A stretch of 64,000 bases of DNA, taken from Leptolyngbya iicbica LK (lineage in GTDB: Bacteria > Cyanobacteriota > Cyanobacteriia > Phormidesmidales > Phormidesmidaceae). Position 1 is the first letter of the stretch. Each line of letters starts with the position of its first letter. Below are positions 1-55,507 of the stretch, in pieces. The stretch spans positions 92,243 through 156,242 of the forward strand of contig NZ_QVFV01000008.1 of the NCBI RefSeq assembly GCF_004212215.1, written 5' to 3'. A program made the translations under genes and the position numbers. The notes under the pieces are model-generated. The model had not been told where the DNA came from and ran no database searches. It worked only from the letters and a program-made list of their open reading frames with translations.

Positions 1-231
1 CCTATCAGCGCGATAGTCACTACCTTAAGCCTCCTTTTCTCTGCTGGGAGGAATGACAACCGAACACAGACGCTAAACACGTACCCAAGGAGAGGCTAGG
101 TGAGGTCCCGTCAAGACTTCATGACAAAGCCGAGTGATTGCTTCAGTTTTATTAAAGAAGTGGCCGCTACCCCGGATCCGGCATATTAGGATGCACCTCT
201 AAGCAACCACAGCCAAGAGGGCAAAAAGCGT

Positions 232-2262
232 ATGTGTGGAATTGGTGGAGTCCTGTATGCCGATCCCCAACGACCCGTGAATCCGGAGGTGTTGGTGGGA
301 ATGGCGGCGATCCAGTATCACCGGGGGCCCGATGGTTTTGGCTATCAGGTGATCGACGATCGCGGCATTGGCTTTACCCATGCGCGACTCTCCATTATTG
401 ACCTCAATCCCGAGCGGGGACGGCAGCCCTTTCGCTCGCCCGATGGTCAGTACCTGATTGCTCACAACGGCGAATTTTACGACTACAAGCGGTTACGGGC
501 CGATCTGGCGTCACGGGGCTATCAGTTCCGTACCAAAAGCGACACCGAGTTGGTGATGCACCTGACCGATCGCTTGGGCCTCGATCAAGCCCTGCCCTGT
601 CTACGCGGTGAGTTTGCCTTTGCGCTGTATGAACGGCAGCAAGATCGACTGACCCTGGTACGCGATCGCTTTGGCATTAAACCGCTGTATTACGCGCAAA
701 TTCCTGGCGGGCTGGTGTTTGGATCAGAAATCAAAGTGGTCTTGGCCCATCCCGAAGTCAAGGCGCAGTTTTCGTCAGAGGGACTGTATCACCAGCTCAT
801 GCAAACGATGGTGCCCGGTACTACCTGCTTTGAGGGCATTTATGCGGTGGAGCCGGGGCAAAAAATTACTGTGCAGCGGCGCGATGGCGAGTTGCTGTTG
901 CACAAAGAGCAGTACTGGGATCTCGACTTTCCGCTCAAGGGCACCCGCGACCTGCACCGCAGCGAAACGGACTATATCGAAGAGTTTCGGGCGCATTTTG
1001 TCGAAGCGATTCAACTGCGGCTAGAGGCGGATGTCCCGGTGGCCTGCTATCTCTCCGGCGGCATTGATTCTTGCTCCATCATGGGGGTGGCGGCCGCCTG
1101 CCAGCAGTCCGCCGTCAAAGCGTTCACCATCGGCTTTGATGACACCGATTACGACGAAACGGCGATCGCCCGCGAAATGGCCGAGGCGGTGAAAGCCGAC
1201 CAGGACATCCTCGCGGTGGATGGCACCCAGCTCTACGACCACTTTGCCCGCACCATCTGGCACACCGAACGCAGCATCTACAACACCTTTACCGTCGCCA
1301 AAATGCTGATGAGTGAGCACGTGCGCGACGCGGGCTACAAGGTCGTGATCACGGGCGAAGGCTCCGACGAATTGTTTGCCGGGTATCCGCAACTGCGGCT
1401 CGACATGATCCTCCACGGCATGGACGACGCCACCCCCGAAGAACGCGCTGGTTTAGAAGCGTGGCTGGCGGAGAGTAATCGCCTATTTAAGGGCAATTTG
1501 CTGGCGGAAAAGCAACTCGATGATCCCGCTTTGACAGAACTCATCGGCTTTACCCCCAGCTCCCTCCAGTCTTGGCTATCCTCCGCCAGCCACGTACCGG
1601 GATTGTTGCATCCGCAGCACCGTCTGAAACTCGATGGCTATGCACCCGGACAATCCATTGCCGCCGCGTTGAATGGCGACCAACTGGACGATCGCCATCC
1701 CCTCGACAAAGCTCAGTACGTGTGGATCAAGACCCAGTTTGAGTCTCAAGTGTTGGGTTGGGCGGGCGATCGCGTCGATATGGCCAATTCCCTCGAAGCC
1801 CGTCCCGCGTTCCTCGATCATCCCCTGGTGGAATTTGCGGTGACCCTGCCTCCCTCGATGCGGTTGCGCGATCGCCAAGACAAATACATCCTGCGGGAAA
1901 CCATGAAACCGCTACTGCCGGAGACCCTATACAAGCGCCAAAAATTCGCGTTCATGGCTCCCCCCTCCCACACGGATGAAGTCAAAGAGGCCGCGATGCG
2001 ATCGCTCGCCAGCAACTACCTCTCCAAAAACCGCGTGCGGGATGCCGGATTACTCGACCCCGATGCCGTCCAGGCCATTCTGGATCGCCACGGTGATACT
2101 GCCACGCCAGTGGCTGAACGAGTCCAACTCGATGCCGTCATCAACCACATGCTGAGCGTGCAAATCTTGCACAATCATTTCGTCGCTAATGACGTGACCC
2201 AGCAAGCCCAAGCCGACGCCAAACGCTACGGCTGGTCAGCTCACGATCTGTCCGCAGTCTGA
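232..2262 (+). CDS. asnB: Asparagine synthetase, glutamine-hydrolysing
   Basis: This enzyme makes asparagine from aspartate, ATP and glutamine-derived ammonia in the cytoplasm. The protein has 676 residues and begins MCGIGG, so Cys2 becomes the N-terminal nucleophile of the class II glutamine amidotransferase domain (about residues 2-200). The synthetase domain follows, with the ATP-pyrophosphatase loop SGGIDS near residue 275 and a GEGSDELFAGYP block typical of the family. The ATG at 232 is fixed by the need for Cys2. The length is somewhat above the 550-630 residues of many AsnB proteins, mainly through a longer C-terminal part. It faces the DUF6816 gene convergently. A specialised amidotransferase of the same family cannot be excluded, but no biosynthetic cluster surrounds it. 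Confidence 0.93.
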   Translation: MCGIGGVLYADPQRPVNPEVLVGMAAIQYHRGPDGFGYQVIDDRGIGFTHARLSIIDLNPERGRQPFRSPDGQYLIAHNGEFYDYKRLRADLASRGYQFRTKSDTELVMHLTDRLGLDQALPCLRGEFAFALYERQQDRLTLVRDRFGIKPLYYAQIPGGLVFGSEIKVVLAHPEVKAQFSSEGLYHQLMQTMVPGTTCFEGIYAVEPGQKITVQRRDGELLLHKEQYWDLDFPLKGTRDLHRSETDYIEEFRAHFVEAIQLRLEADVPVACYLSGGIDSCSIMGVAAACQQSAVKAFTIGFDDTDYDETAIAREMAEAVKADQDILAVDGTQLYDHFARTIWHTERSIYNTFTVAKMLMSEHVRDAGYKVVITGEGSDELFAGYPQLRLDMILHGMDDATPEERAGLEAWLAESNRLFKGNLLAEKQLDDPALTELIGFTPSSLQSWLSSASHVPGLLHPQHRLKLDGYAPGQSIAAALNGDQLDDRHPLDKAQYVWIKTQFESQVLGWAGDRVDMANSLEARPAFLDHPLVEFAVTLPPSMRLRDRQDKYILRETMKPLLPETLYKRQKFAFMAPPSHTDEVKEAAMRSLASNYLSKNRVRDAGLLDPDAVQAILDRHGDTATPVAERVQLDAVINHMLSVQILHNHFVANDVTQQAQADAKRYGWSAHDLSAV

Positions 2263-2291
2263 CCGGCTTATTCACGCCATGCTGGCATTAT

Positions 2292-2320
2292 GCCGTTCTT
2301 AGGGGTTGGTCAACGGCTTT
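2292..2320 (+). terminator. Possible asnB terminator hairpin
   Basis: GCCGTT (2292-2297) pairs with AACGGC (2312-2317) around a 14-base loop and is followed by TTT. It lies just after the asnB stop and touches the stop codon of the convergent gene. The stem is short and the T-run weak. Confidence 0.3.
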
Positions 2321-3119
2321 AAATAGGCGTATTAATTGCGGCCAAGTCGAGCTGGTAGCGGTATAGGGCGACGGGGCGGTTCCCAGCGTCAAAATAGTTG
2401 GGCTCTTGGGGCGACAGGTAAACTGCGGTGACCTGATCGGCAGTCACATGATCGTCATCGACTTGGTGGTAAGCCGTGGTGGTTTCGACCTCGTTGAAAT
2501 AGGGCTTGCCACCACCGCGAAACATCTGTTGGAAGAATTCGGTGGTGATAAATTCAGTGTCTGAAGGGGTTTCTGTAGCGCGCCCCGTCACTGTCGATTC
2601 CAGCATGTGATAATCCGCCAAAATCGTCAGTTGGCGATTGGGATCCTTTGCATCGACGACCACTTTTTTAACCGCTTCTTCGCCGAGATAGGCCTTTGCC
2701 AAGTTCAAGCCGTTGAAGGCGCGATCGGCCACAATCTTCTCTTGAGCGAGTCGGGGCTTTAACAAAAAGCTTTGGGTATACGATGTCAGGCGGGGTTCAA
2801 ACCGCACTTTGCAGGTAATCGGCTCGTTCAACAGACTTTGGTTGCTTTCAAAGCCAGGTGTTTCAATCTCGGGGGCCAGTGGTGCGGCGATATCCACCAG
2901 GGTGCTGGTCATTTCCCACGTTCCGGCCAGCCAGTCAGGATACACGAGATCACCCGTTGCGGGTTTGGTCGGCGGTTTACTGTTCCAATCGGGAAAGGTT
3001 GCTAAGCGATCGCTCAATGGCCCCGCCCAGGCCGTGCCACTGCACAGCAACCAGACTAAGGCTAACAGCACCAACCAAACTAAATATCGACGGTTGCGCT
3101 TTGTTGGCTGTCGAGTCAT
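2319..3119 (-). CDS. DUF6816 family protein, exported, probably thylakoid-lumenal
   Basis: This is a 266-residue protein with a basic start (MTRQPTKRNRR), a hydrophobic stretch of about 20 residues and a likely signal-peptidase site at AWA-G near residue 32, so it should be exported to the lumen or periplasm. The mature part contains YPDWLAGTWEMTSTLVDIAAP, which I associate with the DUF6816 family of cyanobacteria and chloroplasts. That family has a lipocalin-like feel, but its biochemical function is not established to my knowledge. The ATG at 3119 is preceded by a GAGGTG-like ribosome site. It converges with asnB and is divergent from the serine hydrolase gene. Family assignment is from memory of the motif. 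Confidence 0.75.
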   Translation of the reverse strand: MTRQPTKRNRRYLVWLVLLALVWLLCSGTAWAGPLSDRLATFPDWNSKPPTKPATGDLVYPDWLAGTWEMTSTLVDIAAPLAPEIETPGFESNQSLLNEPITCKVRFEPRLTSYTQSFLLKPRLAQEKIVADRAFNGLNLAKAYLGEEAVKKVVVDAKDPNRQLTILADYHMLESTVTGRATETPSDTEFITTEFFQQMFRGGGKPYFNEVETTTAYHQVDDDHVTADQVTAVYLSPQEPNYFDAGNRPVALYRYQLDLAAINTPI

Positions 3120-3581
3120 ATCACCTCACCTGGCAGTCGCCAATCAATAGTGTCAAAGGTAGGGCATTCAACCTGTAACATCAAACGCATTTATCCGTGC
3201 AAACCAGGCGTTGCTGGCGAATCACTTAGATGCCCATAGGGAGGATTGGCGAGTATTTGCTAGATGGCCATCATGGCCTTTCCAGCGTGCCTGGAAATTG
3301 ATTAGAGACAAGGTGCGATCGCCCTGTGGCGTAGTAGTAAAAATCCATGATTTGACAGAGTCATGGACAAACTTTCAAAGGATGCTGCCAGTCCTGCTTG
3401 GCTGTGTCAGCAACGTCCTGCTGGTGTCTAAATCAGCGCCATTGATCTCACCACAATCATCTTTTTGCGAGAGATCGCGTGGGGTGAGGTATCCGATCGG
3501 ATCAGACTGACATACACTTGCAGTGCATCATCGGATCTCACTAACCGCAGTGTTTCCCTCCGCGTCAGGGGGCCGAGCGAA
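3120..3581. other. Divergent intergenic region
   Basis: This is non-coding sequence between two divergently read genes, so both promoters should lie here. I see a short perfect hairpin, TTCCAG-cgtgc-CTGGAA (3280-3296), one HIP1-related site and no convincing small gene. The reading frame of the downstream hydrolase stays open upstream to 3465, but that stretch does not look like coding sequence. Confidence 0.5.
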
Positions 3582-4691
3582 ATGACTGAATTACCGCTGC
3601 AATCCCTATCACAGCGCTCGCGCTATTCTGTTCACCGATCGCCTTGGTTGAGGCTAGCAGTCATTTGTGGCGGGGGCGTGATGGGGGGACTGGCCGCTTG
3701 GTTCGTGAGTGAACTTTTGCTCAACCGCGTCAGTTTTATCTGTTCGGTACCGGGATTCGCCAATCAGCAGATCGCCGCTTGTCGAGTGCCCGCAGCCAAC
3801 CTGCCGATGGTTTCGAGTATCGTCGATCCTTTCCAAAGCACAGCTGCCTGGCTGGCTCAGGCTGACGATGGGCAAGTTCAGGGCATCCCATTGCGTCCGA
3901 TGAAGGTGATGCCTGAGCAATTGCCCCAAATGCCGCCGGTAGCGATCGGGTCGACGTATCCGTTTGGACCACCCTCCTTTACTGACTCAGAACGTCTACA
4001 GGCTGTGGTCGCGCAACTAACCGCGATCGCTCAGGCGTCGGAATATCCGGTTGATGCTCTGAGTATTTCTCTCGTGGATTTGAGCACTGGAGAATACGCG
4101 GGATGGCACGATCGCACGCCACGTTATCCAGCGAGTGTCATCAAACCCTTTTGGGCGATCGCTGCCCTGGCTTACGGCGAAACCGGGCCAGATATCGAAG
4201 CCGCCATTACCCTTTCCGATAATGCGGCGTCTAATCGGCTGCTAAACGGTGTCGGCCATACAGTGATGAGAGATTACTGGCAGGCTGCAGGCTTTTCGAT
4301 TAGTGCTCAATATCCAGTCGATGTCTGGGTGAGCGATCGTCCGGGCAATCGAGTGACGACCACTGATTTGGTGCGTCTGCTGCACGATCTTCATTCACCC
4401 CAGGGTCATCCCCGGATCGCCCAGGCCATGTGGCACGACATTGAAACTGAACGTCATAATGCAGCCGGAGCCATTCAGGGCTTCCTGGGGGCGGGACTGC
4501 CGGGGGGTGCATTACTCACGAAAGTCGGGCTCACGTCCGGAGTGCGGGCAGAAATGGCGATTTTGACGCTGGATGATCGGGCTTATGCGATCGCGATCGT
4601 GGGCGCTGATTCTACCTTTGCCCAGTCCGAAAGTATTTTCCCCGCCTTTGGCGACATCCTCTTTCAGCTGTTATCGTCACCGCCTGCGTGA
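3582..4691 (+). CDS. Membrane-anchored class A beta-lactamase-like serine hydrolase
   Basis: This is a penicillin-recognising serine hydrolase, either a beta-lactamase or a D,D-peptidase-like enzyme, acting outside the cytoplasmic membrane. With the ATG at 3582 it has 369 residues. A membrane segment lies at about residues 24-46, then a linker, then the catalytic domain from about 135. The three signature motifs are visible: SVIK (Ser185, Lys188), SDN (212-214) and a KVG in place of KTG/KSG near 333. An in-frame start at 3465 exists, but the added 39 residues look like untranslated sequence. Val in the third motif is unusual and makes true beta-lactamase activity uncertain. The gene converges with psbA. 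Confidence 0.8.
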   Translation: MTELPLQSLSQRSRYSVHRSPWLRLAVICGGGVMGGLAAWFVSELLLNRVSFICSVPGFANQQIAACRVPAANLPMVSSIVDPFQSTAAWLAQADDGQVQGIPLRPMKVMPEQLPQMPPVAIGSTYPFGPPSFTDSERLQAVVAQLTAIAQASEYPVDALSISLVDLSTGEYAGWHDRTPRYPASVIKPFWAIAALAYGETGPDIEAAITLSDNAASNRLLNGVGHTVMRDYWQAAGFSISAQYPVDVWVSDRPGNRVTTTDLVRLLHDLHSPQGHPRIAQAMWHDIETERHNAAGAIQGFLGAGLPGGALLTKVGLTSGVRAEMAILTLDDRAYAIAIVGADSTFAQSESIFPAFGDILFQLLSSPPA

Positions 4692-4715
4692 GCAGAAAAA
4701 GTCTATTGGCAACTT

Positions 4716-4748
4716 AAAAAGGCGCCCCTCCGAAGAGAGACGCCTTTC
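4716..4748 (-). terminator. Rho-independent terminator of psbA
   Basis: AAAGGCG (4718-4724) pairs with CGCCTTT (4741-4747), with an inner CTC/GAG pair closing a CGAA tetraloop. Read on the minus strand, the stem runs into five Ts. It sits 33 bases beyond the psbA stop codon, the expected place for its terminator. Confidence 0.8.
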
Positions 4749-52247: not shown

Positions 52248-52400
52248 TCAGATCGCATGGGGACTTTTCATCGCAGCCACATCGCTCACCTGCCCCTCAA
52301 TGAGTTCAACCCGCCGCCCTTGAAAAAAGTCGAGATCAGTGAGTCGGTAGTATTCATCCCGCGTCCATAAATGCACCTGCGGTTCTGTCGTAGGTAACAT
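52248..52400 (-). pseudogene. Uma2-family restriction-endonuclease-fold protein, N-terminal remnant
   Basis: Uma2 proteins (about 190 residues) are very common in cyanobacteria and have a PD-(D/E)xK-like fold. Only about 50 residues remain here: VHLWTRDEYYRLTDLDFFQGRRVELIEGQV, which is the family's N-terminal block, then the frame stops. The rest of the domain, including the catalytic core, is missing because the dacB-type gene abuts. The remnant lies at the edge of the AT-rich two-gene island and probably marks a past insertion or deletion. Confidence 0.7.
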
Positions 52401-52488
52401 AGGCTGTCTCATCAATACTGATAGCTGAAGTTTAGCTTGTAGGAGGCGATCGCCCCACTCTGCCAACCGCCCACCGCTTCTGCAAATC

Positions 52489-53826
52489 TCATTGAGCCTC
52501 AAGATGATGCTTGACACAAGCTATCCAAGCATCCCGATTTTTATGTATGCACCACCTAACTTCAGGATACTTACTGCGCAAATTGGTTTTAGTCCATTTC
52601 AACTTTGATAGTTCCTCCCAATGATCTTTGGGCAAAAAGTAAGTGGCATGCCCATAAACAGGTTTCTCCAAAACGGCAATACTCGAATAATCAAAAATAA
52701 AACAGATATAGCCATCAAACTTATTCTCGCCAATAAAAATCTGATCTGGCAAAATCTCACGAATACTTTCAATACGCCACCACTCTAGTCGCTCATCATA
52801 AATTCTCTTAAATTGAGACCGCAAAGAATCAAAGAAAACATCTATATCTTCAGGAGTGTGCTCCTCCAAAAGCTTCCAGTTCATGAAAGTTATCGAAATT
52901 CCCTTAAAATCCTGACGTGAAGGCCTGATAAGTTTACTTTTATATTTTGCTTTATATTCATCAATCCTAGAGATTCTTTCTTTATACATTTTTATTGACT
53001 GAATATATTCTTGTTCCAAAACTTCATTCGAAGATGATTCGAAAACCCATTTGTAACCTTTTCTATATTTCTGCTTCTTGAGACCGAATTTCTCAAGGGC
53101 TGTCTTTTGGATATCCGACCAGTTTCTCCTAAGACTCTCTATCTGTTCACGCAAAGGTGGAATTTCAACAACAAGCTTGCAATACGTATCTAGCAGTTCC
53201 TTGGCCTCCGATCTAGAGGGCATTCTGCCAAGAACCATAGCCAAAGACTCACGCTCCCTTTTATTCGGCTGAATCTGCGCTATTCTTGTCTTTCCAAAAA
53301 CTTTTAACTCTTTAAAGTAACGTGATAAATCTACCGCAAGTTTATCATGATAGGTATTATTTATTTTTGTCTCTTCTTCAAAAAAATCTTCCTCTGTGAA
53401 TCCAAAAAAATCTTCATGATTCAAGGTATAAAATGGAATTTCTATAGAATAGTCTTGATAACCCATCTCCACGAAGGCAGAGATCTCAAACTCTAAAAAA
53501 GTTGCCAAGATGTATAATTGAGAATCTTTATTTTCATTGATACTGCTTGCAATCTTCTCTTTCAATTCTGCAATTTCTTGGAATTTTTCGAGAATGTGTT
53601 TCTCCATTTCTTCTAACTGTCTAAACTCTTCAATCTCCTGAAAACTTGGGATGCCAGGAGGATTTTCAAGAAAGTTGATGGCCGTTCGATTAAGCCCTTC
53701 TAGCTTTATTGATTCCAACTCCTTTATTAGCTGTTTGACTTTCTTCAAAGATTCTTTGTCTTGGCAGAGCAGCATCTTATCTAACTCTTCGCATTTCTCT
53801 AGAAAAACTGAATTCGTCAACGACAT
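52489..53826 (-). CDS. Hypothetical AT-rich protein, second of a paralogous pair
   Basis: I do not recognise this family. The 445-residue product is soluble, highly charged, with coiled-coil-like stretches (residues 65-100, 205-300). Its last 130 residues (316-444) are homologous to those of the gene just upstream: both have WKLLEE, GYICF-F, AVLEKPxYGxATYxLPxDxW, ELSKL, YPEVxxCIH and WIAxV. The N-terminal two-thirds are only weakly alike. The coding sequence is much richer in A and T than the flanks and has no HIP1 octamer, which suggests horizontal transfer. It lies 38 bases after the partner gene, so they should be co-transcribed. The ATG at 53826 has no strong ribosome site. Confidence 0.75.
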   Translation of the reverse strand: MSLTNSVFLEKCEELDKMLLCQDKESLKKVKQLIKELESIKLEGLNRTAINFLENPPGIPSFQEIEEFRQLEEMEKHILEKFQEIAELKEKIASSINENKDSQLYILATFLEFEISAFVEMGYQDYSIEIPFYTLNHEDFFGFTEEDFFEEETKINNTYHDKLAVDLSRYFKELKVFGKTRIAQIQPNKRERESLAMVLGRMPSRSEAKELLDTYCKLVVEIPPLREQIESLRRNWSDIQKTALEKFGLKKQKYRKGYKWVFESSSNEVLEQEYIQSIKMYKERISRIDEYKAKYKSKLIRPSRQDFKGISITFMNWKLLEEHTPEDIDVFFDSLRSQFKRIYDERLEWWRIESIREILPDQIFIGENKFDGYICFIFDYSSIAVLEKPVYGHATYFLPKDHWEELSKLKWTKTNLRSKYPEVRWCIHKNRDAWIACVKHHLEAQ

Positions 53827-53864
53827 ATTGCTATATTTAGGATAGGATTTTTATTATATTCAGT

Positions 53865-55226
53865 TTAGGTGTTCGGCTCGAAAGTTTTGAGAACACAAGT
53901 GTCGCCAGCTACATCCATTTCAAGACTTCGTTGAACATTGGCTATCCAACTATCAAAGTCATAATGAATACATCGTTTTACTTCAGGATATTCTGTAAGC
54001 AAAGTTCTTCTAGTCAGCTTTGACAGCTCCTTCCAATTGTCCTCAGGTAATAAGTAAGTGGCATTGCCGTATAAAGGTTTTTCCAAGACAGCAGTGTGCT
54101 TGTCTTTAAAGAGAAAACAAATGTAACCTCTAAGATTCTTATTGCCAATATAAATTGCGTTCGGACGAAGTTGATTAATCTTCTCAACTCTCTGCCAGTC
54201 GAGTTTTTCGCCATGAATATTTTCCAGGTAGGATCTCAAAGCTTTCATCAATTCTTCGAGTGAATCGTTGAGGCAATATTCTTCTAAAAGCTTCCAATCA
54301 AGTCTCTTAAGCTCTGCATCATCAGCCCAAGAGTACTCCAACTCAGGGTATTCGCTCTGTTTTGAAGCATCAGCTTTAAGTCTTGATTCTATATCTCTAG
54401 TGATCTTTAATTTTGCAATAACATCATCAACTAATCCTTGGTTCTCATGTAAAAGTGCTTTCTGCGCGTCACTCAAATACAATCGGTTTTTGTAGAACAA
54501 ATATTCGTCTGCTTTAGATTTCTCCCTCTTCATAGCCGTTCTCTTTGTGAATTCTTTTCTAAGTGTTATTAAATTTGCGTCAATTTCATCGATCTCTCTT
54601 TCCATCCTTAAAATAGGAGCGATGTGAAGTGTGAAGAATTCAGCTAAGTCGTTTAGCTCTTCACCATTGAGCTTTTTGAACGGACGCAAAGGACCACAAA
54701 ATACTTTGGAAATAAGATTGGCATTATCAAAACCGCCAAGCCCTGCTTTAAAGTCATTTTTATCAGATAACAACTGATGTTTGAAATTCCCCAAAAAATC
54801 AATAACTCCTTTTTCTCTGTCACGTTCCTGAAGAAGCCTAATCAAAGGCTTTTTTTTGTTTTCTGGCTTGTACTTGAAGAAAAATTTTGTTAATAGCTTA
54901 AAGTGTTCATATATTTCACACTTAGAAGAAGTGAGTATAGCAGCTAGAGCCTCAACAGCTTTACATCTCTGCTCCCATTGTTGGCTTGCTTCGTGCTCAT
55001 AGCTTATTATCTGCGCTTCTAAGTTGGCTAAGTCAAAATCCCTGAGCCCTCTGAACTTTGGCGGATCGTCTATCACTTTAACGATCTCAACTAAGGCTGG
55101 ATTAAGTTTGCTGTACACATTTTCTCTTAATTTCTCCAACAACTCATCTGCTTCCTCTCGTGTTAAGTGAGTTCGATTATCGAGATAATCCTCTAAAGAT
55201 CTTTGTAAGATGACAAAGCTTGACAT
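53865..55226 (-). CDS. Hypothetical AT-rich protein, first of a paralogous pair
   Basis: This 453-residue soluble protein is of unknown family. The N-terminal part is helical and Lys/Glu-rich (LTREEADELLEKLREN near residue 25; a second charged helix near 210-240). Residues 311-436 form the module shared with the next gene: WKLLEEY, RPNAIYIGNKNLRGYICFLF, AVLEKPLYGNATYLLPEDNW, ELSKL, YPEVKRCIH, SWIANV. There is no signal peptide or membrane segment. With its partner it forms an isolated two-gene unit lacking HIP1 sites, flanked by core genes (clpB on one side, dacB-type on the other) and an Uma2 remnant. A defence or conflict role is a guess from context only; no nuclease or NTPase motif is visible. 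Confidence 0.75.
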   Translation of the reverse strand: MSSFVILQRSLEDYLDNRTHLTREEADELLEKLRENVYSKLNPALVEIVKVIDDPPKFRGLRDFDLANLEAQIISYEHEASQQWEQRCKAVEALAAILTSSKCEIYEHFKLLTKFFFKYKPENKKKPLIRLLQERDREKGVIDFLGNFKHQLLSDKNDFKAGLGGFDNANLISKVFCGPLRPFKKLNGEELNDLAEFFTLHIAPILRMEREIDEIDANLITLRKEFTKRTAMKREKSKADEYLFYKNRLYLSDAQKALLHENQGLVDDVIAKLKITRDIESRLKADASKQSEYPELEYSWADDAELKRLDWKLLEEYCLNDSLEELMKALRSYLENIHGEKLDWQRVEKINQLRPNAIYIGNKNLRGYICFLFKDKHTAVLEKPLYGNATYLLPEDNWKELSKLTRRTLLTEYPEVKRCIHYDFDSWIANVQRSLEMDVAGDTCVLKTFEPNT

Positions 55227-55507
55227 AGTGAAGAATTGTGATGTCTCAAGTAATGATTTAGATTATTTCAACTCGTAGTTACTGATGCTTTACATGCATT
55301 ATGGCTTATCAGGTTTCCAGGGTAGGGCGATCGCGCCTTTTGGCATACGGCATCACGCACCTGAAAAATATCGAAATCCTTCATAGTTAATAGAGAGGCG
55401 GCGGGTCAGAACTCAGAAATGAGCGGCTGCGAGGTGAGCAAGGCTGACTTCTGATTTCTGCATACTGACTGCTTCACAGATTCTGACTAGCCGGAGACGA
55501 TACCCCT

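Follow-up and report, generated by a model that had tools for sequence, protein, structure and literature searches.

The described protein closest to the locus reported here is ZorC of type I Zorya, whose EH domain (EH_Signature, PF15611; structure 8r68) lies at the C-terminus and is named for a conserved Glu and a conserved His, and whose front part is helical. According to published work, ZorAB recruits ZorCD, and expression of ZorCD likely causes single-strand breaks in host DNA (PMC11890865). The passages on ZorC consulted here make no statement on the role of the EH domain. A search of open-licence literature returned nothing on five member accessions of the family described below or on ZorC relatives, and the phrase "EH signature" matched a magnetotactic bacterium genome.

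We analyzed a window of 64,000 nucleotides, part of contig 8 (NZ_QVFV01000008.1) of the 5.7-Mb genome of Leptolyngbya iicbica LK, in which two adjacent genes share a C-terminal module. This module resembles that of ZorC in a structural comparison and in weak hidden Markov model hits, both obtained with relatives. ZorC is one protein, whereas two paralogues are present here, and no relation between the front parts was detected. No zorA, zorB, or zorD was recognized by eye beside the genes at the locus, and by its neighbors the pair is not a Zorya system. We interpret the island as an accessory module that entered by lateral transfer and most likely encodes a pair directed against phages or mobile elements, with diverged fronts and a constant EH-like tail, and assign this reading a probability of about 0.42. 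The pair is a candidate defense module because its tail also ends a protein family that is often encoded near anti-virus genes, and because that tail resembles part of ZorC.

The gene pair and its shared module

An earlier note on this DNA, made from the letters alone, described two adjacent, co-directional genes encoding 445 and 453 residues with a 38-base gap, and the coordinates agree exactly. The first gene of the pair, P0002 (53865..55226, minus strand), encodes 453 aa, with an N-terminal part of about residues 1-300 and an EH-like C-terminal module. The second, P0001 (52489..53826, minus strand), encodes 445 aa, with an N-terminal part that cannot be aligned with that of P0002 and the same C-terminal module. 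The intergenic gap spans 53827..53864 between the co-directional genes on the minus strand. Both ORFs begin with ATG and both frames are intact, with 445 codons in P0001 and 453 in P0002. By eye, a D-Ala-D-Ala carboxypeptidase-like ORF and ClpB flank the pair.

The module covers residues ~304-440 of P0002 (53907..54317, minus strand), as delimited in an alignment of 30 proteins, and residues ~305-445 of P0001 (52492..52914, minus strand), as delimited by comparison with P0002. BLASTP aligned P0001 315-443 with P0002 309-436 at 48% identity over ~130 aa (E 9e-39) and aligned nothing outside the C-terminal module. For the N-terminal parts, hhalign gave a probability of 0.1%, and their alignment score was equalled by 37.7% of 2000 shuffles. 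A shared C-terminal module behind diverged N-terminal two-thirds, as the note had it, is therefore what the two proteins display. Each N-terminal part weakly matched an overlapping stretch of a third protein, the long-type relative from Nodosilinea (shuffle fractions 0.006 and 0.036), so the two may descend from a common ancestor and have diverged strongly, instead of being unrelated domains. Through this relative, the common part widens to ~193-442 in P0001 and 205-437 in P0002.

The 30 aligned proteins include P0001 and P0002. The conserved positions in P0002 are W311, R346, E382, N388, Y391, W398, R418, H421, and W427. Four columns (A389, Y391, H421, and W427, P0002 numbering) are invariant in all 30 proteins, and nine further columns are at least 90% conserved. 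The E382 column holds E in 28 proteins and D in two, and the H421 column holds H in 30/30. The P0001 module keeps the E, H, and W; the N is replaced by H, and the R418 column holds W, immediately preceded by an R.

Neither protein reached a curated cut-off in Pfam or NCBIfam, profile searches gave no clear family match, and PHROGs and PDB sequence searches with the pair returned nothing convincing, in keeping with the note's remark that the proteins belong to no family known to its author. The pair belongs to a superfamily that none of the searched libraries names. Several weak candidates were rejected. The only PADLOC hit of the pair, between P0001 and RtcR (E 3.6e-4), covers 43 residues of a helical stretch and was dismissed, and the scattered hits to the mitochondrial calcium uniporter, GlcNAc 2-epimerase, and tape measure proteins were weak and short or helical. 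The MAG6450 family (NF046006) resembles P0002 through a weak hit on residues 313-350 (E 0.0027), but the match is short, at 38 residues only, and scored 18.2 bits against a cut-off of 40, and it was rejected as well.

The AlphaFold2 model of P0002 (mean pLDDT 56.9) is usable at the C-terminus only, where ten-residue means are 73-91 across residues 331-440. Because the model is poor outside this stretch, the helical character of the front part is uncertain. The model of a ~310-aa relative is fair (mean pLDDT 85.5). Foldseek returned no hit below E 0.001 with either model. Matches of P0002 to PI3K, SMC, and Lamassu coiled coils in VIA-align (Z up to 10.2) arose from long helices of the low-confidence model and were set aside.

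Relatives and their genetic surroundings

Relatives of the pair are rare and scattered. Of the 63 genomes of the family, three, counting the one studied here, had a match to any part of P0001 (E ≤0.001), and the pair had no match in the other five genomes of the genus examined. Five of the 291 genomes of the class gave a match to P0002, namely its own, one with a long-type gene (G229), two with ~310-aa types (G006 and G203), and one with broken frames (G025); among the genomes searched, only its own gave a full-length match. A profile of the module matched in 2 of 386 genomes of the phylum, again counting its own. A scan of genome contigs gave only the Nodosilinea gene, and its narrow pattern means that this result says little on abundance.

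The module also recurs outside these genomes. With whole P0002 as the query, tblastn matched 12 of 72,556 plasmid records (best E 2e-7), in which residues 303-435 alone matched. In the first nine of these records examined, the module ends proteins of 303-332 aa that carry the annotation "hypothetical protein." A ~310-aa relative as the query reached 21 of the 72,556 plasmid records, and another reached 1 of 50,697 phage records. Ten viral contigs carry a complete gene (two of them encoding the same protein) and one carries a cut copy; scans of viral contigs with whole P0001 and whole P0002 gave no match. Holders of the module are found in Bacillota, Pseudomonadota, Actinomycetota, Bacteroidota, Spirochaetota, Deinococcota, and Cyanobacteriota, and, as a partial match, in Chlorobiota.

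The relatives take two forms. The ~310-aa plasmid and prophage family (e.g. WP_138116148.1 and WP_011669131.1) carries the same C-terminal module as the pair, but its N-terminal part is modeled as beta-rich and has no match to the pair's N-termini. The modeled secondary structure of the front parts differs between the ~310-aa form and P0002, for which the N-terminal model is of low confidence. The long-type gene of Nodosilinea sp. FACHB-131 (L003/L023) is 33-36% identical to P0001 193-442 and P0002 205-437 and has weak N-terminal similarity to the pair; it differs (as in G229) in being a single gene with an interrupted frame at another site, beside an msrA-like ORF named by eye.

These comparisons bear on the earlier note's suggestion of a defense or conflict system in which one domain is shared and the other variable. 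The absence of a known family stands, as does the constant C-terminus with differing N-termini, which extends beyond the pair to the ~310-aa family, and relatives do occur near defense genes. A pair is not, however, the usual form of the homologues: the Nodosilinea gene is single, and each plasmid record holds a single module site (12/12 and 21/21). Nor are the homologues mainly single, conserved housekeeping genes.

We examined the surroundings of the gene in 17 of the 21 plasmid records, leaving out NZ_CP011933, NZ_CP043896, NZ_CP044363, and NZ_CP010358 (one twin of an examined record and three partial matches), and excluded L036 from the count as a near-copy of L015. An annotated restriction, DNA-methylase, toxin-antitoxin/PIN, Fic, Abi, or Lit gene was present in 14 of the 16 distinct neighborhoods (stretches of 7.4 to 14.9 kb). 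For controls, sixteen windows of 13.3 kb were cut from six of these plasmid records (3+3+3+3+2+2), and 4/16 contained such a gene. The difference (Fisher one-sided p 0.0005), and that within the six shared records (5/6 vs. 4/16, Fisher one-sided p 0.023), should be read as an indicative enrichment of defense-type genes near the ~310-aa relatives, since the keywords were chosen after the neighborhoods had been read, the counts were made by eye from product names, and ten of the 16 case records, small plasmids among them, have no control of their own.

The products counted were restriction endonucleases or their subunits, DNA methylases, toxins, antitoxins, PIN/VapC, BrnT/BrnA, Fic, Abi, phage exclusion, HipA, and AIPR. 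Without toxin-antitoxin, PIN, Fic, HipA, and AIPR, the counts, again by eye, fall to 8/16 vs. 1/16. Two further control windows contain DUF262 genes, which were not counted and would raise the controls to 6/16. Two neighborhoods are negative (L015 and L016), two are positive by Fic alone (L009 and L014), and four by toxin-antitoxin or PIN alone (L008, L011, L013, and L031). Other neighbors include GmrSD_N and HEPN_RiboL-PSP proteins (L038), a DUF4365 protein (L026), and an AAA_15 protein with a sub-threshold OLD-like TOPRIM match (L030).

The location of these relatives also suits a second explanation, which we consider unlikely: that the genes are cargo of mobile elements, serving plasmid or prophage maintenance, replication, or transfer, or a host role other than defense. 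Relatives do sit on small plasmids with replication genes, and in the viral contigs L021, L022, and L045 the gene lies on the strand opposite both neighbors. On the other side, the holders counted above are too few for a general maintenance gene, and no replication, transfer, or recombinase gene was recognized by eye among the ORFs of at least 100 aa between 49000 and 59000 of the window.

Three further arrangements were recorded among the ~310-aa relatives. The ~310-aa gene has a small KTSC-domain gene immediately upstream on two plasmids, one from Deinococcus and one from Rhodococcus (L016 5129-5344 and L029 6518-6736). A 5.6-kb record labeled "Bacteriophage sp." (MT838181.1, L035) holds, within 31-4739, an AAA ATPase-like ORF (by eye), an S8 subtilase, and a ~310-aa relative; none of its five ORFs of at least 80 aa was recognized as a phage gene. 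A partial ~310-aa match in Prosthecochloris has a diversity-generating retroelement on one side and a restriction endonuclease on the other (L034 3881-9632).

Similarity to ZorC and a possible mode of action

The reading as an anti-phage or anti-mobile-element pair draws on the similarity of the tail to ZorC. Among 999 chains compared with the ~310-aa model in VIA-align, the best was ZorC (8r68; Z 6.4, rmsd 3.5, 115 residues aligned), a score in the range below 8 that can mean merely a common arrangement. The alignment places residues 189-308 of the model on ZorC 288-468, and the following row restricted to these residues reaches Z 3.6. Rows for CYTH/TTM-type proteins and Med18, which concern the model's N-terminal part, had Z of 4.5 or less, and we do not claim them.

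Sequence models gave a similar picture in part. In a PADLOC scan of the 30 proteins, ZorC was the sole family matched by more than one protein: four of the 30, which are related members, matched the ZorC1 model over a C-terminal stretch only (E 5.9e-4 to 3.3e-3, 14-17 bits). P0001 and P0002 themselves did not match it. From coordinates alone, the four matches share a register that, counted ungapped from the aligned end, puts the conserved E at 394-395, H at 433, and W at 437 of the model, and, counted from the aligned start, E at 394-398, H at 432-437, and W at 436-441. Pfam EH_Signature (PF15611) matched none of the 30 proteins at E up to 5, P0001 and P0002 included, and had no match in their own genome.

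Comparison of the module profile with five to seven cyanobacterial EH proteins was not significant (hhalign probability 0.2-0.4%), and in our own profile alignment against cyanobacterial EH proteins, the score was equalled by 73 of 300 column shuffles. The best path of this non-significant alignment pairs E with E and H..W with H..W. The Glu-His spacing is 39 residues in P0002 and, counted by eye, 40 in a cyanobacterial EH protein (L065); the Trp follows the His by 6 residues in both of these and by 4 in the relatives that match ZorC. Because the profile comparison is not significant, the link to ZorC is probable rather than proven, and, judging from the structural match and the weak model hits, both obtained with relatives, the module probably folds like ZorC's C-terminal EH domain. 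Another cyanobacterium, Nostoc sp. HK-01, has an OmpA/MotB gene and an EH-type protein followed by a helicase and a DNA modification gene (L071 5324-13365), a Zorya-like operon.

In the reading that we favor, P0001 and P0002 arose by duplication, after which the front parts, probably alpha-helical and partly coiled-coil in the low-confidence model, diverged between the copies. Such fronts could be suited to recognizing a partner or target, for sensing or recruiting. The module would then work by analogy with ZorC, which is recruited together with ZorD to bind and degrade incoming phage DNA: a triggered front part would let the C-terminal module act on either nucleic acid or a partner nuclease. 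Adjacency and the shared tail suggest that P0001 and P0002 might work as a heteromer. Both the defense function and DNA as the target are our inferences, the latter by analogy.

A broader version can be put forward tentatively, and we hold it to be somewhat doubtful. The tail would define a phylum-hopping defense family that shares the EH-like part of ZorC, lacks the Zorya motor, and has exchangeable fronts, and the pair would be a two-protein version produced by duplication. On the same tentative footing, the tail would be the constant effector or DNA-binding part, and the fronts would be beta-rich in the ~310-aa plasmid form and probably helical in the cyanobacterial form. If this were true, the one-gene, ~310-aa EH-tailed proteins would allow the EH domain to be studied without a membrane motor, and the wide family of EH-like tails could add a defense family to current catalogues.

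Composition and turnover of the site

The pair sits in a GC-poor island of approximate extent 52467..55313 (no strand assigned), as delimited by composition and by the points where blastn similarity to G046, the closest genome of the genus, breaks off. GC is 0.34-0.38 within the island vs. 0.53-0.62 in flanking windows, and GC3 is 0.370 and 0.368 for the pair vs. 0.496-0.772 for the 23 other large ORFs of the window. Homology to G046 ends at 52448 (a 198-base piece) or 52466 (a 29-base piece) and restarts at 55314. The carboxypeptidase gene and clpB also lie close together in G046, where clpB has the opposite orientation to that in the window. They are separated there by a nucleotidyltransferase-HEPN pair, a DUF2283 protein, and two Uma2 genes. 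The 5 to 8 kb examined beyond the carboxypeptidase gene in three other genomes of the genus contained no clpB.

With other genes between the flanks in G046, and clpB inverted or not found nearby in relatives, the island site is a place of turnover. The low GC and GC3, the scattered relatives, and the different genes between the flanks in the nearest relative argue for lateral acquisition of the pair. The 198 bases at 52251-52448, which match the start region of an intact G046 Uma2 gene (L061 9269-9862) at 88%, are a truncated Uma2 remnant adjoining the island.

In G046, the nucleotidyltransferase and HEPN genes overlap (L061 4041-4725; Pfam E 5e-13 and 5e-25). Their presence at the corresponding place would fit a toxin-antitoxin or effector-immunity couple, with one paralogue damaging or arresting the cell and its partner holding the first in check by way of the module they share. 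The adjacency and common direction of the two genes, and their diverged fronts joined to one kind of tail, are compatible with such a couple, and several relatives lie near toxin-antitoxin genes. We nevertheless judge it quite improbable: the plasmid relatives occupy one place per record and the long-type gene of Nodosilinea is single, the two proteins are both large and similar in length, and no toxin family reaches its cut-off. Still less probable is a decaying, functionless remnant of a mobile element, which the scrambled site, the truncated Uma2 start alongside, and the interrupted frame of the only other long-type gene found would favor, but which is at odds with two intact frames and with the module's conserved E, H, and W, kept in both copies.

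The ends of the island show no direct repeat longer than 9 bases. A 9-base direct repeat at these ends includes the octamer GCGATCGC, which we take to be HIP1, common in cyanobacteria. GGCGATCGC occurs at 52445 and 55326, close to the two points where homology to G046 breaks, and because the octamer is common in cyanobacteria, this coincidence may be due to chance.
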